Source: Spirogloea muscicola (taxonomy: Eukaryota > Streptophyta > Zygnematophyceae > Spirogloeales > Spirogloeaceae). Taken from it: a stretch of 22,791 nt of DNA. The stretch is from positions 1,587,075-1,609,865 of the forward strand of contig WELB01000003.1 in the NCBI GenBank assembly GCA_009602725.1. The letters are read 5' to 3'. Each line of letters begins with the position of its first letter. Position 1 is the stretch's first letter. The notes under the pieces are model-generated. The model saw only the letters and a program-made list of their open reading frames with translations, did not search any database and was not told the origin of the DNA. Below, one piece after another: positions 2,243 through 22,791 of the stretch. The translations under genes were made by a program, and so were the position numbers.

Positions 2243-2503
2243 GCATCTCTTCTGGTAGCAGTACTTTCAAGTAATGCAGGAGCGCTGCACACGCAACGTC
2301 TCTATTTCAACTTGCTGATGTTGCAAGCCCGATACTAGCAATCCTTGCACCTCAAAGGAACTCGTACTGCAAGCACGTATAATCGTCAACCGCTGCTTTG
2401 CCTCTTGCATAGCAATGCAATACAACATTCTGAATTGTTAGGACATTCTGGCCATCAAATTGAGAAGCTTATACATGAGCCCTACATCTAAGGCAATGGC
2501 AAT

Positions 2504-4440
2504 CTACGGGGCCTTCTCGGGACTGTGGCCCTCAGCATGCTGCTGCTTCTCAGCCTGCGCAAGGATCTGCTCAGCGCGCCGCCGACGTTCCAGCTTGTCC
2601 TCATCCTTGACGTTATCCGCCTCCCGCCTTTGCCGGGCCAGGCCCCCTCCCGCAGCCAACAGCGCCCGATTGGCCAGCCGACCCTTGGCCCTCGTCTTGC
2701 TGACCCAGTCAAAGGACAGCGGCATGAGCACCTGTGCTCGGTGCAAGGAGCCTGCTCAACACAACGAGACAAACAAATCAGGTCCTCTGTTCCATTGTTC
2801 AGCCCCAGATGGTCAATCCTCCTGTGTGCGCTTCTCAATGAACGATACAGAGGGGTCACGAGCTAACCGGTTGTTGCTATGGACAAACATTTGATTCCTA
2901 GACTGAGGGCCTTGAAGATCAAAACATGTGCTTAACTGCCGCACCATACCGGCGGTTTTAGCTCCAGTAACAACTTGGGAGTTGGGCTGGCTGCCGGTGC
3001 CGCGGTCTACGTCCATGCCATCATCGTCCTGTTGCTCAGCCTCCACGGCTCGGGCTTTTGCGGCCTCGAGCGCCGGCGCAAAGGCCTCAAGCACGGATGG
3101 CACCTGCGTCTCGCCAGCCGAAGGACCCATCGGCTGCGGCGCCGCCACCTCCAGCCCCAGCCGTGGAGGAGCGAGGAACGGGTTAGCCTCTATGGCGGCA
3201 GTGCCACCTCCAGCCTCCCTGGCGGCGGCTTCCTCGTCAACCAGTTGCATGCCTCCCTGCAAAAACGTCAGAGGTGCCCAATGTTGAGTTGAAGCAACGT
3301 TTAGCGAGCTTTCAGGTTCACCGTAGACATGGGCCACATTGCCGCCAAAGTTCACAACAGCTTAGACTTCCACCCCAAGACATCGTTCTAGCTTCAAACC
3401 TTCTCCAATATCAAACTTTCCAAGCAAGGGGAGAAGCGCTGACCTGCTCATTGAGGTTCCAGCGCTGCTGCAGGGCCACGCCGCCTCTGCCAGCGGTGGC
3501 ATCGAGTGGCGGCGCGGCGCGGCCGAAGCGCAGCTGCAGACGGCGGCTTAAAGAGACAAGGGACTTCTCAGCACGCCGGCGCTCCTTCCCAAGCTCAATG
3601 CTGTCCTTGCGAGGGTTGCTGGGCCGCTCTCGCCACACTGGTGTAGCCACGTATGTGTGTTGGTCGGGTAGCGCTGGCAGCCATTCAGGAATGTCACCAT
3701 GGGGCGGCTCTTCCCCACGCTGTGCAAAGCTCGGCGTCAAGCTGCCAGCCGCACCAAAGTACCGAGCTCCCATCAAGGCGTTGCAGTGCCTTAAATTCTG
3801 AGAGGTTGGTGCCGCGACCACATAAGATAGCTTGGGTGTAGCTTCAGGGTTAGGGTTTTCACTTTGGGGTCAGAGGTACCAGGATTTGGGCATCAGGCAC
3901 CAACCTGCGGGACTTCTTGCGGATGGGGAACTTGGGCACGGGCTGCGCAAACTGTGTGTCTGGAGTACAATGAGCAAAGCGTACGATGTCCGACGGCGGC
4001 GCGCCGACATCGCTGAGCGCCAGGAGTACATCTGCCAGGTGACTCTCCACTCGCCCGGCATGCTCCGTGTAAGCGTGCGCAGTGCCGCCAATCTCGCTGA
4101 GGTAGCGAATGAGCACGTCTGAACGAAGGAGGACGCACGCTCGCTGTCAGGCCGGGACACCTCCTGCAGCCAATTAATCAAGGGTCCGAGTCTAAGAAGC
4201 GGGAAATTTCGGGGATGAATTACTCTCGAGATTGATAGTAAGGCCTGGAGATGGAAGCTTGGCGCTGGCTCCCATCTCCCGCAGCGGCGGCCAGCTGCCA
4301 GTTGTGATGCCAGCAAGGGGGAAAAGAGTGGAACCTGCAAGCGTGTCGATGGCGGAGCGCTGGATGGCCTGGAAGCCGAAGCTCTCGCAGACTTGTGCGG
4401 CGACGACGCGCGCCAGCGCGCGGGCAAAGGCGTCGCTCAT
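2504..4440 (-). CDS. TAF8: Transcription initiation factor TFIID subunit 8 (TAF8)
   Basis: TFIID component that pairs through its histone fold with TAF10 in the nucleus (known for the family). The model has five exons, complement(4335..4440, 3905..4118, 3444..3741, 2950..3256, 2504..2751), and encodes 390 residues (Arabidopsis TAF8 about 350). The N-terminal bromodomain-associated histone fold (residues about 5-75) includes FQAIQRSAIDTLADVLIRYL and HAGRVESHLADVLLAL. The TAF8 signature follows at about 119-137: EEPPHGDIPEWLPALPDQHT. A basic helix (GKERRRAEKSLVSLSRRL), an NPFLAPPR motif, an acidic DDDGMDVD patch and a charged coiled tail (KLERRRRAEQILAQAEKQQ) come next. The start is the first ATG in the exon 1 frame. 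The last intron is least certain: a donor at 2,949 (GTATGG) with acceptor before 2,751 keeps frame, but a shorter exon 4 is possible. Confidence 0.9.
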
Positions 4441-4756
4441 CGCCGCAAGAACGCGGGCTGCGAGCTGCGGCACCCGGTGGGCTGCGGCAGTCCCGGCGCC
4501 CACCTCGGGATGAGCTGCGCGTCTGGCAGGGCCTGGCCAGGCGGGGAGGGCCGGCACGACCAGGCCCTGCACTCTGTGCCGGGGTCATGGACAGCAGCGG
4601 CGAGGCGGCACCCACGAGACGCCTGCTCACGCTGCGCTAGGGATGGGCAAGCGACACGAGAGGGCAACAAACGAGGGGCACCCAGCAGGGGGATAGTGGC
4701 TTTGGTTTCTTAGCGCTTCCTCTGGCTTCCTCTGGCCCTCTTCTCGTTCTTTGTTC

Positions 4757-4815
4757 ATTCTTTTTTGGGCTGGCTTGTCCAGCCCCTATCCTCAATGGGC
4801 GAGCCCTTTCTTTCT
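4757..4815 (+). repeat. Partial LINE-type 3'-UTR block
   Basis: TTTTTTGGGCTGGCTTGTCC is followed by AGCCCCTATCCTCAATGGGC. The first half matches the 3'-UTR core of the 1-2,340 cluster. The second half matches the reverse complement of 478-512. It lies in the TAF8 upstream region, so the family is dispersed beyond the left cluster. Confidence 0.5.
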
Positions 4816-5013: not shown

Positions 5014-5527
5014 ATCAAGGGGAGAGAGAGGGCCGGGGGGGGGGAGAGAGAGAGGCGGAATGTAGGGGGGAAAAATTAGGAGAGAGAGAGAGGGAGAGAG
5101 TGGGGGACCTGAAAGTTAGATGGTAGATCACACTCCAGGCTGTTGCCGCGGAGACTCGTTGGATCGCCATCTCTCGGCGCGCTGAGGCTTCCACTGCCCG
5201 TGCCGCATGGCCTTGGCCGCAGTCCACAGCTGCAGCGGCAGCGGCGTGAGCTGGCTCCCTGCCCAGTGCCTGCGGCTTCAAGACGGCCTGCAGCTGCGCT
5301 GCGGGACGATCATCGAAGCTGCGCGCTGCTAGAAGCTGAGGTGCGGCGGCCTTAGCCTCCAGTATGGGCTCCCGGCGATAGCAGTGGGCGCAGCCATGGG
5401 GGCTATCACATTTTCCTCCCAGGCGGCAGTGCTGGCGGCGGCAGCGGCATTGGCGGCAGCAACGGCTTGCGTCATGTACCACTAGCGCTGCTACGCTCAG
5501 CCTGTGCCTGGCGGGTAGCGGGCGGGG

Positions 5528-8500
5528 ATGGCGACCCTGCGTGAGAAGGTCATGAGCATGGAGAAGCTGCTTACGGCGGCCAACGATGACCACATTGCTG
5601 ACGGCTTGGCCACCAAGGACTCCACAATCACGGTACTGGTGTTGTGTCTGTCTCTGGCCAGTGTTGGACTGGCACTCTGTGAAGGTGCCGCTCAATGCAG
5701 GTCCATGCTTGATCGCCCTCATTGACGGCGCATGTTGCCGTGCCGGCGGGCAGGTGTGCCTCACCAGCCAGGACTGCAAGCTGCAGGAGCTGCCAGAGGA
5801 GCTTTTCACCTTCCCGGCGCTTGCGCAGCTCCAGGTTGCTGGCCACGAGCTGACGAGCCTGCCGCCGTCCATCGCTCGACTGACCAGCCTGACGAAGCTT
5901 GACGTTTCCGGGAACAAGCTGACCAGGTCTACAGCCGGGCTCGCCGCGCCAAGTACACTGCCGCTCGTCCCCTTTGCATGGCTGGTAGAAGCGCCGCGGC
6001 GTCAAGCCTTGATCAATGTGATGCAGGTGGCGGCAATTGCTCGCACTACTGTCCAATACTTCCTCTCTGAACCCAAGACTCAAAACCTTGAGCCTAAGAT
6101 CACAATCCCAAAGTCAGCTCATGAGAATCATCTCCACAGTAAAGTCCGGTAGAATGAGAGCTCTCACTCAGGTCGCTGGCCCACGTCTCCGGCTGCAGCC
6201 TCCCAGCAGAGATTGGGAGCCTGCCCTTCCTGGAGGACCTGGATGCCAGCCGCAACCTGCTGACAGCGCTGCCAGCAGAAATCGGCTGCCTGCATGCACT
6301 CAAGTTCCTCAACCTCATGGCCAATGAGCTTGTGGATTTGCCGGAGGAGATTGGGGAGCTCTCGGCCCTCTACCGTCTTGGCTTGAAGAGCAATAAGCTC
6401 AGGCATGTATCTCTGGGTGGGACATTATGCAACACGCTATGCCTCATCGCCCTTTTCTGCTGGCTCGTGGCATTGTGATAGCTAGACCAAGTCTGCCTGG
6501 GCTAAGTTGCTAAGATAACTAGCAATCGGGCCTTCTTCATGTCAGACATTCTACTTCTTGGACTTAGGGACAGCAGTTGGAGAGCTGACGGCATGCAAAT
6601 GCTTTGACCTGCGGAGCGCCCTGGCAGGCACCTGCCTGAGTCAGTGGGAAAGATGACGGGCCTTGTGGAGGTATTTCTGACGGACAACGTCCTGGAGAGG
6701 CTGCCCTCAAGCTTCGGCAGCCTGAAGAAGCTCTTCAAGCTGCAGGTGAGTGCTCAATCATGCCCCCTCACTATGTTGTCTCTCACAATATGGTCTTTAA
6801 CGATAATGTCCACATTCTAAAAATCTGGGCTGTATTGGATTTGCTGCTCCCAGACTTTGCGTGTGCACTTAGGCACACCTCAGCACCAATCATTGTGCAG
6901 GCTTCATTCAATCGGCTCAGAAGTCTGCCAGAGGAGATGGGAAACCTTCCAAATTTGGAGCTCCTGCGGGTGGCAGTCAATGACATAACCAGCATCCCGG
7001 CTGAATTTGGAGGCCTTGACAAACTTGCATGGCTCTCGTTAGCAGGCAATCCGGCATGCCCTTCGACCCCACCAGGAAGAGAAGCCATCCAGCGGCTGGA
7101 GTACCAGGAGCTCAGCCTTGACACACTTCTGGGTGACGGAGCATCTGGTGAGGGCCTGTGGTTTGGCATCATAGAATCAATAACATCATAGTATGCAACA
7201 ATCAAGAGCAGTGTTTGCAATCTTCATGAAAGCATTCTGTCGCTTGTTGCAGGCGATGTCTTTGCAGCAATCTGGCGTGGACGTACAGTCGCCTTCAAGC
7301 GCTTCAAAGCAGAGACGAGTCCTGATGGTCACTCAAGCTCCGAGATTGCAATCACTTGTGCTATGGAACATCCGAACCTCATCAACGTCATAGGCATTGT
7401 GGACGAACCTAAGGGACTGGTTGTGGAGCTTGTGAAGGGGAGGTACTGTGCATACCTCAGTGCTGAATTGTACACCATTTATATTGGTTGCAGATTGCAA
7501 GTAGCACCTTACTTTAGTGCGCCCCCTGAGTCCACAATGTAAGGGGAATACATTGGGTTTGCTTCAGATTGTTGCCTTTCATACACATTGTGCGCAAAGA
7601 TGCAGCAACAACAGAGATAAATTACGTCCTCAAATAGCCTACTACGTGCACTCACTATCAGCTATTCCTCGTTACATCGTGACTCATATGTGCATCGTGA
7701 TTTGTCAGACCTCTTGCAGCCAAGCCAAACTTTCAGTCCCTCCTTCGCTGCCGGTGGGAAGAGGGTGTTCTTTTCACCACAGACTACATCCTGAGGTAGA
7801 AGCTCTATTCTTCTTATGTATTTCAAGTGTACAGAAGGTGAATGCTTTTACACTGGGGCGCAAGCCACCTCGCAGTTGAGGGCCAAAAAAGGTCTAGGGT
7901 CTGACAAATCACAGGTGCCAATGTATCATTTACAATGGAATGGGTTTTGCTATCCTTGCCAGGGCCGCAAATGGAGTTGCCAGTGCACTTGCGTATATGC
8001 ATCAAAAGCACATCTGCCATGGAGATGTTTATGCGCACAATGTTATAGTTGCAGATGACGGGTTTGCTGTTCTGTGCGACTATGGTAGGAGCCCCAAAGC
8101 ACCATGATCCTACTTGGGCATGTAATCTTCTACTTGGTTTCCTTCTTGCTCGAAGTCCCTACTTGCAAACGCACCAAGTAGTCTGCTTGAAGTGCGAAGC
8201 GGAGTATGCTATCATGCTTGAAGTTGCCAGCTCCAGACTTGCACACCAGCCCTTACTTTCTTGTCTTGCTGGAGCTCAAGCACCGAAGGCATGCAGCCAG
8301 ACATCCTCACCACTCTCCGATCCCTCTGCAGGCGCATCTTTCTGCTATCAGCCTGGCCCAGTCAACTATGAAGCTCACGAAGTGCGAGCCTTTGGCTTGC
8401 TCCTCAATGACCTGGTCACAAGACTGGGTTCAGATGCAGACGGGAGCACAGTCAAGGAGGTGCACCGCTGGCCCAGACTCCGGTGCTGTTGTTGTCCTAT

Positions 8501-8638
8501 GTGCGCGGGCTTCGTCTTTCTGATCATGAAGGTCTGTGCATGCAGTTGACGAGGCTTGCAGAGGACTGTACCTTGGGAGCAGCAGCCACCAGACCTAGCT
8601 TTGAGGAGGTGCGCAGCCGTCTGGAACTTCTACTTTGA
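5528..8638 (+). CDS. Leucine-rich-repeat protein kinase with a shortened, atypical kinase domain
   Basis: Ten exons join in phase: 5528..5632, 5754..5926, 6199..6402, 6628..6745, 6901..7147, 7253..7442, 7709..7795, 7963..8084, 8332..8459, 8546..8638, giving 488 residues. Residues about 36-265 are plant-intracellular or bacterial style LRRs (LPEEL, LPAEIGSLPFLEDLDASRN, LPEEIGELSALYRLGLKSN). Residues about 276-487 are a kinase: glycine loop GDGASG (278-283), VAFK with K298, HGDVYAHN with D396 and N401, DYG at 414-416, then EVRAFG at 432-437. There is no signal peptide or membrane helix, so it is probably cytosolic. HRD is replaced by HGD, and only about 16 residues separate DYG from EVRAFG, so no APE-containing activation segment remains. 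Intron 3 has a GC donor. The start follows an in-frame TAG. Substrates are unknown. From memory, bacterial LRR kinases share the HGDxYAHN/EVRAFG pattern. Confidence 0.85.
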
Positions 8639-9443: not shown

Positions 9444-10253
9444 TCACGAGCCAGTTCTAAATTTGCCCTCGTCAATCGGGATGCCTTCCCTTTCAGCGTG
9501 CTCGCCTCCTGATTCCTCGGTGGTCGACAAGCCTCCTTTCCTGCCCATCTCTTGGTAACCCTCCGGACCCAGCTCCTCCACCCTCGTGTGACCGCCCTTG
9601 CTGCGGCCTGCAGACAGTGTGCCAGGTCTGGCCTAAGACGATGTGCGCCGCTGATAGAGTGGCATGCATAGTCCAGGACGATAGAGCGGCATGCGTAGCC
9701 CAGGACGAGGATCATCACACATTGGGTCATGGCTAGCTTGCCTTCTGCAAGATGGATCTGAGCCTCCAATGACTTGCCGCTGGTGCCGCCTTGCACCACA
9801 GTTTCACCCTGCGACCCAGATTCAGGAACTCGCAAACGAAATATGAGCTTGGGCACGGCAAAGCTTGCCTGCAACGTGCTCATGCCTGACCCTGCGGCTA
9901 AATTATGGTCCAAGTAGGAATGTTAAGAGCTGCCTTGCAGCACGATTGCCGTGCAGCTTATCCCGAAATTACAGGTGGGAAATAATGAAGGCCACAATAG
10001 TACTTCTGAGACCCTGCGCTTCTGCTGCTGCTGCCGATTCTGGACTGTAGGACGAAGCAGGACAGCATTGTCATCGTGACAACGCCTCGACTGCATTTTG
10101 ACAGCCGAGGCCTGGAGTCCTGCTGCACTTGCTGGGGAGCATGCGGTCACAGGAGCCCACCTGACGGGCCCTCCGGTCGAGCTCCTGCCTCACATCCTCG
10201 GGCAGATGCTTGGCCTCCTCCACAGTGACCTGGTAATCGCCCTGCGCCTGCAT
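9444..10253 (-). CDS. Group 1 LEA (Em-type) desiccation protein, LEA copy 1 (5' end uncertain)
   Basis: Group 1 LEA proteins are small, very hydrophilic, disordered proteins that protect cells during drying (family knowledge). Exons: complement(10161..10253, 9742..9808, 9444..9607), 107 residues counted from the ATG at 10,253. Residues 1-31 are an algal module ([20 protein letters not shown]). Then comes the Em hallmark: [51 protein letters not shown], and a C-terminus [12 protein letters not shown]. The order and spacing match plant Em proteins with one 20-mer motif. Intron 2 has a GC donor (AG/GCAAGC). The frame stays open upstream of 10,253 into the assembly gap without another ATG. An Arg-rich presequence-like ORF beginning MAMAPLPASPPLLPAV at 10,438 is out of frame, so the true N-terminus may be longer. 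Confidence 0.88.
9653..9706 (+). repeat. 27-bp tandem duplication in LEA copy 1 intron 2
   Basis: Two adjacent 27-bp units, 9,653-9,679 and 9,680-9,706, each starting GATAGAG and ending CCAGGAC, differ at about three positions. They lie entirely within the intron (9,608-9,741). Confidence 0.85.
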
Positions 10254-10344
10254 CTTGGCAAAGCAGATACCGCAGCGACAAGCCGCACCTGCGCTCCGCA
10301 GTGACTCGCGGCCCTGGACGGCGAGCGCGCCCGCAGGCTTGTGC

Positions 10345-10375
10345 GGTGGCGGCGGCGGCGGCGGCGGCGGCGGAG
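10345..10375 (+). repeat. (GGC)n triplet tract
   Basis: About nine GGC triplets lie upstream of LEA copy 1, mirrored by a CCG tract at 10,761-10,795 upstream of LEA copy 2. Such tracts on both sides of an assembly gap are a likely cause of the gap. Confidence 0.85.
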
Positions 10376-10457
10376 GCGAGGGCGAGGGGGGACTGCAGGC
10401 AGCAATGGTGGGGAGGCGGGGAGGGGCGCCATGGCCATGCAGCCCGGGGGAGGGGGG

Positions 10458-10696
10458 NNNNNNNNNNNNNNNNNNNNNNNNNNNNNNNNNNNNNNNNNNN
10501 NNNNNNNNNNNNNNNNNNNNNNNNNNNNNNNNNNNNNNNNNNNNNNNNNNNNNNNNNNNNNNNNNNNNNNNNNNNNNNNNNNNNNNNNNNNNNNNNNNNN
10601 NNNNNNNNNNNNNNNNNNNNNNNNNNNNNNNNNNNNNNNNNNNNNNNNNNNNNNNNNNNNNNNNNNNNNNNNNNNNNNNNNNNNNNNNNNNNNNNN
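10458..10696. other. Assembly gap (239 N)
   Basis: Unresolved bases inside the head-to-head LEA spacer. They hide both LEA promoters and possibly the 5' end of LEA copy 1. The true length may differ from the number of N. Confidence 1.

Positions 10697-10760
<64 letters not shown>
10697..10760. repeat. Poly(T) homopolymer, 64 nt, abutting the gap
   Basis: An uninterrupted run of 64 T lies directly between the N block and the (CCG) tract. It may be a real homopolymer, a poly(A) tail of a minus-strand retroelement insertion, or a sequencing or gap-filling artefact. Because it borders Ns, its length should not be trusted. Confidence 0.95.
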
Positions 10761-10804
10761 CCGCCGTCGCCGCCGCCGCCGCCGCCGCCGGCGCCGTGAC
10801 CTGC

Positions 10805-11662
10805 ATGTCCGTCGCCAGGTCCTACTCGTCCCTTCGCGCGCTCGCCGCCTCCGCCGCCGGCTCGCGCCTGCCTGCGCTACGCAGCCTGCGCACCGCAGGC
10901 AGCCCGGCAGCGGCGGGCAGCGGGCCTGGGCGCCGCCGCCACTTCTCCAGGGCGCTCGAGATGCAGGGGCAGGGCGGAGAGCAGGTGACTGCGGAGGAGG
11001 CCAAGCACCTGCCGGAGGATAAGAAGCGAGAACTGGACCAGAGGGCTCGCCAGGTTGCGTCCGACGACCACATGTGCCGAGCAGGCCTGCAGGCCTTGGC
11101 TGCCATGTAGCTGCCTGCAGCCAGCTGCTTGGGGTCGCATCAGCGGCAGTAGCCCTTGCTGGGTGCACTTATTTGAGCAGAGACCAAGATCGCATGAAAC
11201 GGCAACTGAGCTCGAGCTCATATTTCACTCGTACTCTGATACCTGGGCTGCAGGGTGAGACTGTGGTGAAAGGCGGCACCAGCGGCAAGTCTTTGGAGGC
11301 TCAGATACACCTCGCAGAAGGCAAGCCAGCGCAGGCGCTCGGGGTCCTGAGTTCCCAGCTTTCTCGTTTAGCGTAATCACCTAGGTTTTGTACTTCACCG
11401 GCCCGTTTGCTGCAGCTGAGCTTGACGACACAGGTTGCAATCATGGATCAGGAATATTATCAATCCAGAAGCCGACCTTATGAGTTGACGTGTACTATCT
11501 GCAGGACGCAGCAAGGGTGGTCAGACGAGGGCTGAGGAGCTGGGCCCCGAAGGTTACCACGAGATGGGTAAGAAAGGGGGCCTGTCGAGTTCCGGAGCAG
11601 ATGGAGGAGAACGTGCTGCCCAAGAAGGCATCCCAATAGACGAAAGCAAGTTCACGAAATGA
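10805..11662 (+). CDS. Group 1 LEA (Em-type) protein with a predicted mitochondrial presequence, LEA copy 2
   Basis: Exons 10805..11053, 11254..11320 and 11505..11662 encode 157 residues. Residues 1-52 look like a mitochondrial targeting peptide: [20 protein letters not shown], rich in Arg, Ser and Ala, with no acidic residue until just before the module, ending [10 protein letters not shown]. Residues 53-83 are the conserved module ([20 protein letters not shown]). The Em core then follows: [48 protein letters not shown], and C-terminus [10 protein letters not shown]. Intron 1 (11,054-11,253) is phase 0. Intron 2 (11,321-11,504) has a GC donor and sits exactly where it does in copy 1. The gene is head to head with copy 1 across the gap. 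If the more internal Met53 were used, a cytosolic 105-residue form would result. The family is certain; the targeting is inferred. Confidence 0.92.
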
Positions 11663-13130
11663 ACGGCAACGATGAGTAGGTGTAGTCTGTGGCCCACTTA
11701 GAGACTCAAGCAGCAGCACGACCTCAAGAGTAACCTCAAGTTCAAATACTTGCTGCTCCAGTCACGGTCTTGTGATCACATTGCAATTGCAAGCTATACT
11801 TCAGCCCCCACAGTAGGCAGCGGCTGCGCCTGTTTCTGCTTTTGACGGTCAGGGCCGTGGGCACACCCTCTAGCATTCAACCCCCAGCGTGGCCTGCCGT
11901 GCAGAGCACCCAAGAGCGGCTCTTTCAGAAGAACGGTGCCAGCATCTGCATGAGCGCTTCGCTTCGCTGCCACAGAAATGGCTGTTTGTTGCCTATGCTT
12001 TTCTTTTCATGTATGATTCTGACATAGATAATCTCTGGCTCACGTACAATCCCAAAGGCCCACGTGCCTGACTTTGGGAGGGCGTTCGAAATGAGATGCC
12101 TTGATGCACACAAAAAACAAAGCAAAACATATAAAAGTCAGATTGATAATCGAGACGAGATGGAGGGTCTTTCGAAAATGAGGGCAGGTGTCCGTGTAAG
12201 CCCGCAACTCAGCCACGGCATACTATGCCAACGCAGATAGTAAATATGCCTGTCAGACAATCTGTCTCAGCAGAAGCCGTTGTGGATTTTCTCGCAGCTT
12301 CATTGCTTCACATTGTCGAGATTTGAGAAGCACAACGTGCACGCACGACACGCCGCATAATTGAGCAATGGCGAAGCACCGAGCGAGCGACAAGAGCGAC
12401 TTGGGCGTGCTCCTGCAGTTGTAGAGAGAGAGACGCTTCCAGGACAGGGCGGTGGCAGCTGTAGAGGACCTTTGCCGAAGCCTTACACTCTCCATCCCAG
12501 TCCTGCAGCCAGGCTTCCGAGGCCGTTAAGTGTGCGCCACGTGGCAGGGGCTTAGCTCAAGCTCAGCCGAGCTCCGCCCACTGAGCTCCGTACGGCCCCA
12601 TAAGACCCTGCATGGCTGCATCCAAAGCCCCGGCATGCCGCGCTCACGGCCCGTTGGCCGCGCCGAGAGCTACAGCGCCGCGCCCGCCATGGGCCTCCAT
12701 TTGAGCACCCTGCTCACACTGTGCTGAAGTTGCATGCCCCTGCGGAAGCTGTGATCGGCTGCGCTCCTCCTCGTACGGGGTGAGTTGGCCGCCTGTAGCC
12801 GCTGCTTCGCGCGCCACGTTGCGCCCTGAACGGCACAAGGCCTCGCTATGATTCTCGAATGCCTGCCGCCCTTTGCTGACGCTGCATGCAGCCGCCGCCT
12901 GCACGGCCTCCAGGGCGGAAGCGGAAGGCGAGGTGGGGTGAAAGGGCAGCAGCAACAGAGCAACTTAAAGCCTCACTTAAAGTGGTGAGGCTTTAAGTTG
13001 TTAGTGGACTACATTGTCTCTCAGTAAAAGCATAAGTACCCGTATCTCAATCGCTCTACCTGAGTTATCTGTAAATACAAATCCGTAGGATTTGTGGCGT
13101 AAAGTGAAGCTGATGATGCTGCAATAATGC
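11663..13130. other. Intergenic region between LEA copy 2 and the decayed third copy
   Basis: I see no credible gene. Short open frames such as an 18-codon ATG ORF at 12,368-12,424 and minus-strand frames at 12,253-12,963 lack recognisable motifs or convincing starts. It contains a TATA-like CATATAAAAG near 12,127, a 10-bp G-box palindrome at 12,536-12,545, a perfect hairpin at 12,961-13,000 and a smaller one at 13,077-13,095 (ACAAATCC..GGATTTGT). Confidence 0.4.
12961..13000. repeat. Perfect 16-bp inverted repeat (hairpin)
   Basis: Arms CAACTTAAAGCCTCAC (12,961-12,976) and GTGAGGCTTTAAGTTG (12,985-13,000) are exact reverse complements around an 8-nt loop. The centre itself contains the near-palindrome CACTTAAAGTG. 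It lies about 230 bp upstream of the decayed LEA copy. Its role is unknown; a miniature element remnant or a transcribed hairpin are possibilities. Confidence 0.9.
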
Positions 13131-13226
13131 TCCAGTCTCATCTTACTAGGTGCAGGCCGTCAATCTGCACTCGACCCTGCGGCTGCAAGAGACCACGGCA
13201 GCTTGAGGCCCTCCAAGGTGCTGAAA

Positions 13227-13779
13227 ATGCAGGAGCTGGGCGAGAAGCGCCAGCTGACCGTTGACGAGGCAAAGAAGCTGCCACAGAAGCTGTGGGAGGA
13301 GGTGAAGCAAGACCTTGACCAGAGGGCTGCCCAGGTTCACTCTCGAAACTCATGCGGCCACCGAGCAAGAGCAGGACTGCAAGAAGTCACATTGCAGCGC
13401 ATGCATCAGAGACTTGCGTCAAGGACAGTGATCTACCTCGTCCAGCCCTGGACTGATACGCAGGGTCGTGCGAGCTTAGGCAGCTGTCTCCTTTCTGCAC
13501 CTTCTCCAACTTACTCCATTATCTCAAACTGAGATGCAGGGTGAGACTGTGGTGGAAGGCGGCACCGGTGGCAAGTCTTTGGAGGCCCAGATACACCTTG
13601 CAGAAGGCAAGCCTGTCAGGATACTCCCCTCATACTCTTACCTATTCAGCTTGCTCGGAGGATTTAGCGTACTTGCAAAGGAGCGAGCAGGATAGATTCT
13701 TTGCCGGAAGTGGAGTGGGATGTGTGCAGGCCGCAGCAAGGGCGGCCACGCGAGGGCGAAGGAGCTAGATTCCAAGTGA
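13227..13779 (+). pseudogene. Group 1 LEA (Em-type) copy 3, truncated by nonsense codons
   Basis: The exon structure matches copies 1 and 2: 13227..13334, 13540..13606 (again 67 nt), then 13730 onward, with the same intron phases and the same GC donor (AG/GCAAGC at 13,607). The module is present but diverged (QLTVDEAKKLPQKLWEEVKQ), with a few extra residues. The Em core [20 protein letters not shown] is intact. Exon 3 reads GRSKGGHARAKELDSK and then hits TGA at 13,777-13,779, where the other copies continue with GYQEM. Beyond it, HQEMGKQAGLSSP is still recognisable before further TAG and TGA codons. There is no in-frame upstream ATG giving a presequence. A 74-residue product could still be made, but decay is the simpler reading. 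Confidence 0.85.
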
Positions 13780-15774: not shown

Positions 15775-18700
15775 ATGGACGAAGCGAGCCTGGCGCTGGC
15801 CGAGCGCCTCGTATCTCCGTCGTACATTCGGCAGGGCGGCCAGGCCCTGGCGCGCCGTCGCAAGATGGTGAGAGCGCGCCGCCGAGCTGCCCGGCGGCCA
15901 CCTCATGGTCTCCGTGCGGCGCTGCGCGCCTTGGTCTCTCGCTCAGCCGAGTGCGGCGGAGCGCCCCCCGGCGAGCAGGTGAAGGCGCTGCTGTCGCAGC
16001 GCCAGCTGCCGCGGGAGCCGTGGGACGACGACACCATCGAGTGGCTGATCCAGGTTATGCAATTTGCTCAGTCTCCGCGCACCTCTACGGTGCCTGCCTA
16101 AGCTGGCCGAGTGACCGTAGAGACGGGCAACAATTTGATAATTACGCAGACAGACAGACACTGCATGTCATTTAAAATTGCTCGCATCACTGCCGCTGAT
16201 GGAAGAGGGTGCACATTGCCATAAGAAGATGGTCAATGAGGTGCATGTAGTCAGCTGTGGCCAACTATCATGACATCAATCGCTCTGCTTGCAATGCAGG
16301 ACCTGGCACTCATGGACAGCAACAACTTTGTGGACAACGTTGGGATTGGGGAAAGAGAGGCCAGGTGCGCGAGCGAGTTAGTCAGGCGGCGGCACTATGG
16401 CCTCGCGCATGGCATAGGCCGCTCAGGCAACATCGCTGATGAGCAGCCCAAGGCGAGTGCAAATTGATGGTCCTGTTGAGCAGGTCCTTGTCATACGGTT
16501 GTTTTTTGTGCTGACAACTTCACTGTTCCAGGAATCAATATGAGAGACGTCGACTGTCTCCACTGTCTTCTTGTTAGCTTGACCCTGGTGATTGTTGCTT
16601 GCTTCCGGCACCATCAGGCTGCTGGCTCCACTCTTCTGGCCAGGGTGACAAATTATCTGGTCAGAGATGCCTTGGAAATCGCAGGCCTCAAGGGTATGTT
16701 CGTGTCTGACTTCTTAGCCATCTGCACTCAATTAGCTTTAGTCAAGCAGAGCCAAGCTGTGTGAGCAGGCATGACAAACTTATGGAGGAGGCTTGTTATG
16801 GTGTATGCAGATGTGGGTGCTGTGACAGTGCTGCCAATTGCAACAGGCATGACAATCACTATTACTCTCCTCGCATTAAGATCCAAGCGACCAGCATGTG
16901 CTAGGCAAGTGAATCTTATCATGTGCCCTATGATGCATGCCAGATCCTTGCAGTTGTTAGCCTTGTGCACTCTTCCTGGTTGGGTCACCAGACTATTCTC
17001 CATTCTACCACGCTTTGATCGGATTGAGAAGGTGATGGTACTCTTCCAGGTTCGTCCTATGGCCAAGAATGGACCAAAAGACGTGTGTGAAGGCAGTCAC
17101 ATCTGCTGGACTAGACCTCGTGGTTAGTCACATTGCTGGCTCTCTTCCTTGCAGGAGACTGCTGCGTATGCCACCTCTGCTACAACCCTATCTGGAAGCA
17201 TTGCTTGCACGCACTAACTGTGTATTAAGAGCACCGGCCGCAAGTAGTCCGTGTATTTTATTTGTACCAGCCACTTGCACAGAGATAGGCAGTTAATACT
17301 TACTTAGTGGACTGTGTGACAATGCAGGTAATTTCCAGCATTCTGGAGGAAGACCAAGTCTGTACAAATGTTACTCAAATTGAGCAGGAGATATGTACGA
17401 GGGGTGCAGATAACATTGTCTGCGTGCTCACCACCACGTCATGTTTCGCACCTCGAGCAGCTGACAGGTACTCAGCACCTAGTCCTCATGAAAAATCGCT
17501 GGCTTGGCAAGCTTAGGTCATTGCAGTTGACATGGAGGTGCTCTTGGCTCATGAGTGGTGTAGAGTGGAGGAGGTCGCCAAATTATGTCATCGCTATGGT
17601 GTGGGGCACATCATTAACAATGCGTATGGTGTGCAGGTATGTCTGCCTCATCAGATCTGTGTGGGTTCCACTAAGGATCCTCATTCAAATAGTCTCTGAC
17701 GATGCTGCACTGTTGCAGGCATCTTCAATCTGCGAGAGTGTAACAAGAGCCTGGAGGCGAGGACGGGTTGATGGTGTCATCCAAAGCACAGACAAGAACT
17801 TCATGGTCCCGGTATGATCAAGTTGCCTACCTATGCAAATGCAAAGAAATGAAGTACTGCCAAGTTGACTGCATCTCACTTCAACTTGACTTGTCCAGGT
17901 GGGAGGTGCCGTCCTCGCATCAGGAGCTAAAGATGCCTCGCTTGTGGACGCTGTGAATGCATTATACCCGGGTAAGTGGCTCAGCTGCTTGGTGGAGGAT
18001 AGAGAGCCTGATAGAAAGCCTTGCCATTTGGCAGTCTTGACTTCAAGGCAGCCTCTTCCTGAGCTGTTACTTACGCTTTCTTGCAGGACGAGCTTCAATG
18101 AGTCCGTTACTGGATGTTTTCATCACATTACTCTCTCTGGGGGCTTCAGGCAGGTCCTTGGTGACAGGAGCGCTTGTGTTGCGGGCTTCATTGCAGTAAA
18201 TCTCACACATTGTATATCATCTGTATGACTTTTGAAGACAATCTTTCAAAGTACATTTGTGTGATGCTCCAATAAGCAGGGTGGAGGAAGCTGCTGGAGC
18301 AGCGACAGACGGTCTTTACACATCTTCACAACGGTCTGGCAGCATTGGCAGAAGAGCAAGGTCTGTAGCTTTATGTTCCTTTTATGATACTGAGATTTTC
18401 ATATAGAAGATGTATTGTTATTGGTATTGTTTGGCCTTATATTTGTGATGTTGGTTTTGTCTTGCATGAAATGCTGCTGCTAAAAGGTAGGCCGCCTTAG
18501 CATCCTTGCTCATCCACTCAGTATGCAGAAGCCAGGCAATCCTTATTCTGCTAAAAGCTCCTCAATCTGCCTCCTATACCTGCAGGAGAGCGACTGCTCA
18601 GCACTCCCCAGAACCCCATCTCCATGGCCATGTCGCTTTCCACATTGCAGTCTCCTAGTGCAGGCGAGCAGGAACACATTGGACTGGGTAATCAAGAGTC

Positions 18701-19369
18701 TGCAGAAGCACCTGAGAAGGGCAGCTTGCGGCCACTGAGTGCATTGGCAAGAGAGGACAGAGGCAAGAGTCCTGCAATGGACCCCCCTCTGCAGTCTTCT
18801 GAGTCAGAGCTTTTAGGCAGGGCTGCACTGGAGCTTGAAGATAGCAAGCTGGAAGTTGAGCAAGAGCACACCGGTGGCTGTGGACGCAGCCTGACCTTTT
18901 TGGGCTCCATGCTCTTCATGAGGTACTATGCGGAGCTTGCCATGCGCTGTGTGAGGGCCAAGTGGTGCCACAGCATACCTTACTAAATATTTTACTTCTG
19001 TGCAACCTGAGCAGGTGCATCTCAGGTTGTCGCATTGTAGTGCCCAGAGAGAGGAAGACAGTGGGAGGTCATACATTTGATGGATATGGCTCATCCTATC
19101 ATAGGTCAGATTGCCCCAACTCTGGCCAACGGTGGTAATTACTGTACAGTGAAGGACAACGGCAAATGGTATGTATTGCTGTGCTTGACTTCTGGCTTTA
19201 TCATTTGTTATCCTACTCAGAGATAATGTGTGACTGCTCATCTTGTAGGTATCCAGTTCCATACCTGACTGCAGCTGCAGCCATAGGCACAACAATCCGT
19301 GATGTGGATACTTTCCTGGGGAGATTGAGGACAGCACTCATTGAGTTCAAGAACCTTAGACATCTGTAG
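15775..19369 (+). CDS. SEPSECS: O-phosphoseryl-tRNA(Sec):selenocysteinyl-tRNA synthase (SepSecS)
   Basis: PLP-dependent enzyme converting phosphoseryl-tRNA(Sec) to selenocysteinyl-tRNA(Sec) with selenophosphate. Fifteen exons: 15775..15867, 15979..16053, 16300..16452, 16618..16693, 16811..16904, 17050..17122, 17328..17467, 17564..17636, 17719..17811, 17899..17971, 18087..18149, 18280..18360, 18586..18922, 19015..19104, 19249..19369; 544 residues (human 501). Landmarks in order: [95 protein letters not shown] with the PLP lysine at K285, [33 protein letters not shown]. Exon 13 carries about 84 acidic, Ser-rich residues where the human protein has about 10. Introns 3, 5 and 11 need GC donors to stay in frame. 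Intron 1 (111 nt) is stop-free and a multiple of three. Its presence implies that the organism makes selenoproteins. Confidence 0.96.
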
Positions 19370-19768
19370 ACAGCAACATGCAATCCGACACCCAAGCATA
19401 CTCAACTTTCTGTGACTTTGATTCATTGTAGGTCCTCTGAGCCCAAAGAGACATTAAGCTGGAAAGACTGATATGAGGTCCCTAAATAGGAGCAGGAACA
19501 CAATCTAAAATTTGCTTTGAGTCAGACAGGTCAGTGGGGCTGGAGCTTGGTAGGTCCTGGACACTCTCAAGAACAGGAAGATGTCAACATGGAACGCACA
19601 AATCTACTGCGCAAACCGGTTGCCAAAGGCACCAAAATTGGTCTAAATCTCAGATCTCAGCACCATTTGTACTGACATCATAGCCTCATTGTAATTGCCT
19701 CTATCCTCAAACATATTCCGACCAAAAAGGAGGTGTCTTCTGCCTCGTGAAAATGTGACAAGACCTGG
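19370..19768. other. Convergent 3' intergenic region
   Basis: 399 bp lie between the SepSecS stop and the carrier stop on the other strand. This presumably contains both 3' UTRs. I see no ORF, RNA gene or repeat here. Confidence 0.5.
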
Positions 19769-22700
19769 CTACAGGGCATGCTGCTGCAGTCGCACTGCAG
19801 ATCCTGCCTCAGCACCGCCCTCTGCCAGGCGCTTGGCCTCCAACTCCTGCTTCTCCAAGGCACGTTTTGCCAGCTCGTACCCTGCAAAGTTCATAGCGCC
19901 CAGCGGAGCGATCCAGAAGAAGCGGGGCAAAGCCCCCTTGAAGAGTGCAGGCATACCCTCATTTGTAGCTATGGCTCTCCCTGTGGCCAGGAGCCCCATG
20001 GCCATTCCCGGCGCAGCAGTCATCATGCGCGTCTTGATCACATCAAAGGGCGTAGTGCAGACTGCCGCTGCTCCACCCGACGCGCCACCTACCACGATCG
20101 TCTCCCAGGGAGCGAGCTCTCGGTCCAGGAGCCTCCGCACTATCTGCCACCAGCACGTAAAGAAAGCCAGCCAAAAACAATACATTGTCTAAGCAGCTCA
20201 ACGTGGGCACGTCTATAGGTTGCTGAGCATAGCTTGTGCATATGGAGCCACTTCAAAGTTAACTTTCTTGTTGTAGCTGCTCACTCCCAACTTTTCACAT
20301 AAGGCGTGATAGAGAACACTGACCTTCTTGGCTTCCTCATAGATCACCATGCCGGCAACGTAGAAGGGCACCTCGCGGCAGAGCGTTGCACTTGTGCCTC
20401 TGAACAGGCCGGGCACTCCATCCTGCTGTATGGTGCCCACAAAAGCTTCCCAGACGTTAGGGTACAGCCCTGCCTGGAGCCGCTGCTTCAGAACTTCCCC
20501 AGGTATTCGCCATGCTGTGCCCAGCACTGCACTGCAGAACGATGATGTCGATTGGACCTGCAGTGCCGGAGGTCAGCTGTTACAGTAGCACAGGATCAGG
20601 GTCGCAGAACATTCTCAAAATAGAGGGCCACATGGACTTCACAAGCTGTTCTGAGGTGACCCGTGAGACATGCAATGGGAGCAAGCACCTGAATGTCAGG
20701 AAGCTTCGGTGCCACGTGTTTCAGAAGCACCTTTCCCACCTCGAACACTCCAGTTCTCAGGCCGTGACTGCATGACGTAGAGACAAGCTTGACAATCTAC
20801 CATAATGCCTGCCTCTATGACAGTAGCAGGCTCCAGCTTGTGCCCAGTTCACGAGGTCTAGCAGTCAAGAATTGTACGAGCAATCCAAGTACAGCGTTGG
20901 TGCATTTAACAATGCTGGCCAGGCAGTTCTTACCTCGTGAACTGGCCAATTATCGCAGGGATGGATCCTCGGTAGAGGCCAGTCAAACCGAGCTGCGGAA
21001 GGGTGCCGATGACATCGGAAAAGGAGAGCGTCGATGCTTGCACCCTAGTCTGCACCAGCCACAAGCCGCACACGCTTAATGAGCTCACGCTACTTTTCAT
21101 GATTGCTGCTCAAGCATGATGAGCACGAAGCTCAAGCAATACAAAGCAACAGATGAGTTACTGCAGAGTAACGGGCAAATGTATGTGCACTTGATTTACA
21201 AGCGCATCGTACAATGCTGGAAATGCAGTAAATTTTATTGTTGTCAGTCAGCACAGAGGATGCTGCCGAGCAGACCTTCAGGGTGTCAAGGGGGTGCATG
21301 ACGCAGGTGGACAGCCCACAGGCCAGGCCGCCCGCAAGGGCTGACTTGAGAACGCTGCCAGCCGGAATCATTGTGGGCGGGGACATGGGCACGACAGTAG
21401 CTGCCTCAAACCAAACCATGCTGAGGAGCACACAGATGAAGTAAGGGACATCAGGAACTGCACAGAGCACAGAGCTGATTGTTGCCATCATGAGCGAAGC
21501 AGTGCATTGCCAAATGGAGGTGGCACTTGGTCTACATGGATGGAACGATCGCTACCTGGCATCACCACCCAGGCGCTCTGGCGGGAGGAGCAACATGAAG
21601 TTCCGGAACTGGCCGTACGCCACCTGGCCCTCGTCATTGTCGGCATCCAGGCACCGCATCATCGCCTTGGCATTCTCCTCCGTGGCCGGCAGCCCGGCCC
21701 TGCGTAGTGAGTCCAGGACCTGACCCAGACACACCAGCCCCTTGCAGGATATCACTTGGCAATGGAGTTTACTTAGACAACCACAATAGAGGCAGGAGGT
21801 GAAGTTAGCACTTTGACAACGTATCCTTTGCTGCATATCATTCAAGGCAAGCTAATGGCATAAATGAAGCTGATGCTGACGATGCAGACCTGGCTCTTCT
21901 GGAGCGTGCCTGACTCGCTGAGGCTGAGGGAGTTGAAAGCGCGCAGCATGGTGGGCTCTTTCTGCTCCATGAGGAGGAGGAACTCGTCCCAGCCGAACGA
22001 CTTGGCCAGCCACGAGCGGCGGGCCCGGCGGAGGAACGACCGCGCGTAGCGCGGCGGCAGCTTCCGGCGGCGCATCAGCTCCTCCAGGTCGGCCAGCGTC
22101 ACCTGCCCGTTGGCGTCGCGGTCCAGCTCCCGGAAGAGCTTCCGACCTGCGCCCATCAGAAGAGTCACAATGCTGGAAGACAAGCTAGTGCACGGCTGAC
22201 CCAGTTTGAGTTTTGCGGCCGTTGCGCTCGGTCTTCGTCAGGGCATGCCCAAGTGCTGCATTACATGATCGCAGGAAATAACGGTGGCCTTGAATGCAGC
22301 AGGATGATGCCACAAAGACGACATTGTTATGATGCCACAGGATGACGCCACAAAGGCTACATTGTCATGAGAGCAGCAAACGAGCAACGAAACCAGTGCC
22401 GGTAACGGCTCCTGACCTTCCTCCTCGGTATACTGGAAGAAGTCCTGCACGGAGGACAGCCGGCGCTTGTCGGGGAAGGCCTGCCGGCCGTCGAAGAGGC
22501 GCCGGAGGACCCTGACGCGGGACAGCTTCGAGCGGACCTCCTCCAGGTCCACCAGCTTCGAGAGCTCCCACTTGGCTTCGACGTGGTCATGACCGCTGGC
22601 ACCTGGGTTGTGGGGCGCCAGCGGCAGTCTGCCGCTGCCGCTGCCGTTGACGGCGCCCTTCCGGCTCGTCGTCGGGACGTCGGCGCCGGCGTCCTCGCCG

Positions 22701-22791
22701 CCGCTTGGCAAGCCCGCCTCCGACGGTAGCCCCGGCGACGGCCCGCCGCCGACGCTGCCAACGCCGTCGCCGCCTTCCCGCAGGCGGGGCC
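19769..22791 (-). CDS. SAMTL: SAMTL-type mitochondrial carrier family protein with EF-hand-like N-terminal region (5' partial)
   Basis: Probable solute carrier resembling Arabidopsis At2g35800 (S-adenosylmethionine transporter-like) across its whole visible length. Exons: complement(22417..>22791, 21890..22146, 21556..21719, 21276..21420, 20934..21049, 20689..20767, 20324..20557, 19769..20143). The N-terminal region has FFQYTEEEGRKLFRELDRDA followed by NGQVTLADLEELMRRRKLPP, an EF-hand-like loop with Asp rather than Glu at position 12. A second, degenerate loop is DADNDEGQVAYGQF. Three carrier repeats follow, with signatures MHPLDTLKTRVQ, WRIPGEVLKQRLQ and TTPFDVIKTRMM, plus TSATLCREVPFYVAGMVIYE and ALPRFFWIAPLGAMNFAGYE. 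The first visible exon is open to the right edge and low-complexity (Gly, Ser, Pro), so the start and any organelle transit peptide lie outside. Substrate and membrane (plastid or mitochondrial) are inferred from homology only. Confidence 0.93.

Follow-up and report, generated by a model that had tools for sequence, protein, structure and literature searches.

Positions 9444–13779 of the 22,791-nucleotide stretch of DNA analyzed here (the window; positions 1587075–1609865 of contig C3 in an assembly of 153 Mb and 471 contigs) contain three copies, A, B, and C, of a gene for a group 1 late embryogenesis abundant (LEA) protein of the Em type, which corresponds to the Pfam family LEA_5. All three are built on one common three-exon plan. 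We consider it highly probable (roughly 85%) that A and B are genes for group 1 LEA proteins acting as water-stress protectants and stem from a local duplication older than the split between the homologous contig sets described below, with B maybe carrying a presequence and C being a relic.

In line with the original prediction of an Em-type cluster, the translated exons of all three copies exceed the curated Pfam LEA_5 cut-off of 40 bits (A, 126.2 bits, E = 9.3e-37; B, 133.6 bits, E = 4.7e-39; C, 62.2 bits, E = 7.2e-17), as does the protein of a more distant single locus on contig C87 (126.9 bits), whose synonymous distances to the C3 copies A, B, and C are 1.8, 2.3, and 1.4, respectively. 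Three proteins were also compared with NCBIfam, and none had a model there. The 20-residue motif of group 1 LEA proteins (PMC8946055; this and the other PMC articles are cited here from excerpts) agrees at 14 of 20 positions in both A and B and at 12 of 20 in the C87 protein, while copy C falls short of it, its sequence being cut inside the motif. The Em hallmarks described previously for the whole cluster are present as a full set in A and B, but C retains just the first (GETVV...SLEAQ) plus an altered second. A, mature B, and the C87 protein are strongly hydrophilic (grand average of hydropathicity −1.08 to −1.15), contain 14.9–18.1% glycine, and lack cysteine and tryptophan, a composition as would be expected of group 1 LEA proteins that are mostly disordered.

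The protection of proteins and membranes in drying cells has been ascribed to LEA proteins (PMC8946055, PMC8073698). By analogy, A and B would yield small, glycine-rich, very hydrophilic, and probably disordered proteins that limit damage to proteins and membranes during drying, osmotic stress, or freezing. Copy A would represent the simple version, which most likely stays in the cytosol or nucleus. Copy B may give the same protein with an organelle presequence, perhaps beside a cytosolic form made from an inner start codon, and copy C would be left as a relic.

Gene plan of the cluster

The region studied extends from the final base of the stop codon of copy A (9444) to the final base of the premature stop of copy C (13779), and the three copies with a single three-exon layout were found there as originally described. 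The exons are listed in Table 1; the start codons of A, B, and C were placed by hand. Copy A lies on the minus strand and encodes 107 amino acids; copy B, on the plus strand, encodes 157 amino acids, or 105 if read from the inner ATG at 10961; copy C, likewise on the plus strand, can be read for 74 amino acids up to its premature stop. The earlier picture of two intact head-to-head copies and a decayed one thus holds for C3, where A and B are intact and divergent and C is interrupted. The stretch between the ATGs of A and B, which includes a run of 239 N, is possibly a common promoter.

Exon boundaries and phases are common to A, B, C, and C87. The first exon terminates in phase 0, ahead of GETVV; exon 2 starts in phase 0 and ends in phase 1 after 67 nt, and exon 3 joins in phase 1. 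The second exon had been reported as identical in the three copies. Its length and phase are indeed the same, but its sequence is not, as 5–8 of the 67 bases differ among A, B, and C. Intron 2 has a GC donor (GCAAGC or GCAAGT) in seven of the nine Em-type copies of the assembly, A, B, and C on C3 among them, and a GT donor in the other two, C87 and the copy C of contig C32; in C87 it is intron 1 that has the GC donor. Splicing of the A, B, and C exons is predicted from their conservation.

The LEA_5 genes of Arabidopsis, rice, and tigernut contain one intron only, which is in phase 1 (PMC11902115). Because the land-plant genes have this single phase 1 intron, intron 2 of A, B, C, and C87, which is also in phase 1 (the comparison being by phase), may be the same ancient intron. 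The algal genes differ from their land-plant counterparts in having two introns, with an additional phase 0 intron preceding GETVV, in the GC donor at intron 2 of seven of the nine copies, and in the N-terminal extension of B. At the protein level, the likeness to land-plant Em consists of a LEA_5 match across the mature protein, one 20-residue motif, and the hydrophilic, glycine-rich composition, as judged by the family model and the published motif.

Homologous contig sets and constraint on the copies

The block that holds the cluster occurs on C3, in inverted orientation on C36, and split between C61 and C32, mostly at 80–90% identity. Its flanks, a leucine-rich repeat (LRR) kinase gene on the left and, to the right, the genes for SepSecS and for a mitochondrial carrier, accompany the cluster at 89–90% identity on C36, 87% on C61 (left part), and 89% on C32, where the right part stops at the contig end. 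Pieces across the Em genes are approximately 79–86% identical among the sets, and some intergenic pieces are as low as 71–77%. A tree restricted to the copies of this genome recovered an A group (support 81) and separate B and C clades (99 and 98). Since A, B, and C recur in the contig sets and B and C form clades of their own, the local duplication is placed before the divergence of the three sets. The proposal of a local duplication is thereby upheld.

Two observations concern the continuity of the block. Its third copy breaks in the A/B intergenic stretch near a run of N (C61 from 532567 on, with 802 N at 532918–533719; C32 ends at 951368), which reflects either a scaffold mis-join or a real rearrangement. 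On C36, positions 60088–63563 (about 3.5 kb, 807 bases of it N) are without an equivalent in the window, where they would fall between 12422 and 12500.

Copy A is intact in all three sets, copy B in two, and copy C in none. The ratio of non-synonymous to synonymous divergence (dN/dS) of copy A is 0.14, 0.12, and 0.14 in the three pairs, and that of mature B is 0.08 in the single pair that could be used, since the damaged exon 1 excluded the C32 copy of B. Purifying selection acts on A and on mature B (dN/dS 0.08–0.14). Third codon positions hold 13 of the 20 differences between the C3 and C36 copies of A (p = 0.004) and six of nine in mature B (p = 0.04).

Some points weigh against A and B being a maintained pair of protectants. 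Their presumed role is drawn solely from relatives, and the gene models themselves may contain errors because intron 2 of A, B, and C has a GC donor. Furthermore, the C32 copy of B lacks the 3′ end of exon 1 together with the donor, so that B is not kept in all sets; this copy is 75 bases shorter between ATG and exon 2, although its ATG lies 145 bases from a contig end.

The threefold block suggests that the nucleus is hybrid or polyploid, or else that three relatives were mixed. That three related algae were assembled together, each with only A, B, and sometimes C, is a serious possibility that we rate a little short of even odds. Besides the Em block, a stretch of contig C50 (80–88% identity) and the locus of a second type of LEA_5 gene (80–84% in the main pieces) are each found three times, and the assembly size of 153 Mb equals roughly threefold 51 Mb. 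However, two of the five loci tested for copy number, the C87 Em locus and a stretch of contig C120, were found once each, and a hybrid or polyploid nucleus would fit equally well. A match to rbcL was not obtained in the assembly, and hence no count of plastid types.

Searching the assembly with the LEA_5 profile returned 18 exon matches, which resolve into at least 12 loci. Nine of these belong to the Em type: copy A is found on C3, C36, and C61, copy B on C3, C36, and C32, and copy C on C3 and C32, the ninth being the C87 locus. The remaining three constitute the second, KGG-rich type (type II) and lie on C1, C10, and C190 (L018, L017, and L019, respectively). The C190 protein, with exons joined by eye, matches Pfam LEA_5 with E = 1.2e-13, and the donor following the first exon, judged by eye from the next residue, seems to be GC in two type II loci and GT in one. 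We considered a genome-wide expansion of LEA_5 and rejected it, as eight of the nine Em-type loci go back to one block present in homologous copies and the three type II loci resemble one locus present three times. Also rejected was a single-exon retrocopy on C36 (66256–66600): this contiguous LEA_5 match is the C36 copy A, read in one open frame from exon 2 through intron 2 into exon 3.

The extension of copy B and the fate of copy C

Copy B has 52 additional codons upstream of the ATG that it has in common with A, and neither A nor C87 has such an extension. In all three B copies the extension is colinear, with the same ATG, the same end, no indel, and no stop, and its net charge is +8, +6, and +8, with one or two acidic residues per 52. 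Upstream of the ATG of A there is no conserved frame, the leaders of the A copies differing by frame-breaking indels. The outer ATG of B has T at both −3 and +4; at the inner ATG, position −3 is G (by eye). Since the outer context is weak and the inner one better, both forms of B could be made from one mRNA by leaky scanning, which has been demonstrated at weak start contexts in a green alga (PMC11892635).

Organelle targeting by this candidate presequence is speculative. The reading that the extension is real and sends B to the mitochondrion (or plastid), such that the A/B pair serves two compartments, is a tentative one against which the balance tilts. It would have a precedent in Artemia, whose group 1 LEA proteins occur in the cytosol and in mitochondria (PMC8946055), and the basic, nearly acid-free, and colinear peptide, the lack of a conserved frame at the corresponding place upstream of A, and the feasibility of leaky scanning are all consistent with it. 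The maximum hydrophobic moment of the extension, however, does not rise above that of shuffled sequences (1273, 1742, and 1537 of 2000 shuffles reach the value), its third-position bias is non-significant (8 of 16 variable columns, p = 0.13), and its dN/dS values are 0.48, 0.20, and 0.39. GC-rich DNA in this region yields basic peptides in another frame as well. Moreover, the extension differs at 11 of 156 bases between C3 and C36, little under the divergence of the B introns (8–10%, with 0–1 gap columns); because these introns are nearly as divergent and equally poor in gaps, the absence of indels in the extension means little.

Unlikely in our view is a further elaboration, by which B of the head-to-head pair gained an organelle presequence and a common control region drives protection of both the cytosol and the mitochondrion or plastid, as an independent parallel to Artemia. 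No organelle-targeted Em protein from an alga was found among the literature matches listed (titles and abstract openings), which is not proof of absence. If B were targeted to an organelle, the A/B pair would allow cytosolic and organellar protection to be separated genetically. Weak as the support for targeting is, the extension is the most interesting feature of the cluster and worth a test at the bench.

In the preferred reading, with A and B as group 1 LEA protectants, copy C is a decayed third member. On C3 it carries a premature stop and its 20-residue motif is cut; on C32 it has no ATG at the expected start and the motif is degraded; neither copy retains the C-terminal region. On C36 the copy is absent from its place, the sequences corresponding to window positions 13009 and 14168 being joined with no N at the junction, and the gap of 807 N located 1.8 kb from this junction might hold a relocated copy. 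Between C3 and C32, dN/dS of copy C is 0.20. Because nine of its 12 differences over the first 74 codons sit at third positions (p = 0.004), copy C probably lost its function late. The same two values could speak for a shortened working gene in place of a pseudogene, which is most improbable in view of the premature stop, the missing start codon, the absence from C36, and the loss of motif and C-terminal region in both remaining copies.

Relatives, lifestyle, and surroundings

Seeds are the best-known source of Em proteins. Bacterial KGG-type general stress proteins (GsiB-like) belong to the same Pfam family, and Bacillus subtilis gave the sole LEA_5 match among 14 control genomes. Plasmid records contained no match to the C87 protein at an E-value of 1 or below. 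For the type II LEA_5, one weak match was obtained, a general stress protein of Weissella (E = 0.4). Scans of the genome_contigs and viral_contigs collections with short exact peptide patterns gave 242 and 164 pattern matches, respectively, with no relative by tblastn, a result that does not imply absence.

The distribution assumed in the original prediction (seed plants, bacteria, and Artemia) proved incomplete, as LEA5 has also been recorded for chlorophyte and streptophyte algae (PMC7289719, Table 1). Em/LEA5 proteins of green algae are already known, and the cluster adds further members. The chlorophyte LEA5 are of the same family and are compared here at family level, from that listing. 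In Artemia, the AfLEA1 family also comprises several similar group 1 proteins, located in the cytosol and the mitochondrion, but these bear two to eight repeats of the 20-residue motif, whereas the algal proteins have one (PMC8946055). An Em pair that is duplicated and under constraint, in what seems to be a green alga, and that shares a phase 1 intron with land plants, fits the published view that LEA5 was present in the green-plant ancestor (PMC7289719), and the A/B pair offers a simple system to test what Em proteins do.

A green alga as the source, as had been proposed, fits on modest evidence, namely the SepSecS neighbor and plant-type CCCTAAA repeats, of which four units were found at one of 20 contig ends examined (seven of the 20 consist entirely of N). 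The suggested lichen lifestyle received no support. Horizontally acquired glycoside hydrolases of family 8 (GH8) were reported for 11 of 13 symbiotic vs. five of 23 non-symbiotic Trebouxiophyceae (PMC11126685). This marker of lichen-forming species, which was defined for Trebouxiophyceae, had neither a match to PF01270 nor a candidate in the present genome; this is mild evidence, since an exon-by-exon search can miss a gene and the alga may belong to another class.

Table 1. Exons and associated features of the Em gene cluster, in window coordinates.
Feature	Position	Strand	Remarks
Copy A exon 1	10161..10253	-	31 codons from MQAQGDYQ, ends RRARQ; donor GT, phase 0
Copy A exon 2	9742..9808	-	67 nt; GC donor, phase 1
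Copy A exon 3	9444..9607	-	GRSKGG...KGGLS, then stop
A/B intergenic stretch	10254..10804		551 bp from ATG to ATG; N at 10458-10696, then poly-T run
Copy B N-terminal extension	10805..10960	+	52 codons, basic, Ser/Ala/Arg-rich; candidate organelle presequence
Copy B exon 1, portion common to A	10961..11053	+	From inner ATG, ends RARQ (whole exon 1, 10805-11053)
Copy B exon 2	11254..11320	+	67 nt; GC donor
Copy B exon 3	11505..11662	+	GRSKGGQTR...IDESKFTK, then stop
Copy C exon 1	13227..13334	+	MQELGEKRQ...DQRAAQ
Copy C exon 2	13540..13606	+	67 nt; GC donor
Copy C exon 3	13730..13779	+	Premature stop; most of 20-residue motif and C-terminal IDESKF region missing

Four further genes were recognized in the window. 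To the right of the cluster lies a gene for SepSecS (O-phosphoseryl-tRNA selenium transferase; ~15780–19370, plus strand), for which three of four open frames tried match Pfam; because this gene is present, the alga probably makes selenoproteins. It is followed by a mitochondrial carrier with an EF-hand region (~19770–22790, minus strand), probably a calcium-regulated carrier. On the left side, the LRR and protein-kinase gene occupies positions ~5519–8635 (plus strand), and of its two kinase frames tried one scored above the Pfam cut-off and one below. The first part of a gene at ~2500–4450 (minus strand) matches the bromodomain-associated domain Bromo_TP (E = 5.9e-6).

Two repeats were noted as separate observations. 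In the L016 search, 40 of the 880 first-look candidates were scored, and 38 of these 40 fell on an 80-base stretch (L016 2112–2201, with the repeat at 2120–2201). The left part of the window contains a short dispersed repeat with the arms GGGCTGGCT and AGCCAGCCC, located by eye at 240–310, 585–660, 1660–1740, 1870–1930, 2155–2225, and 4727–4812.

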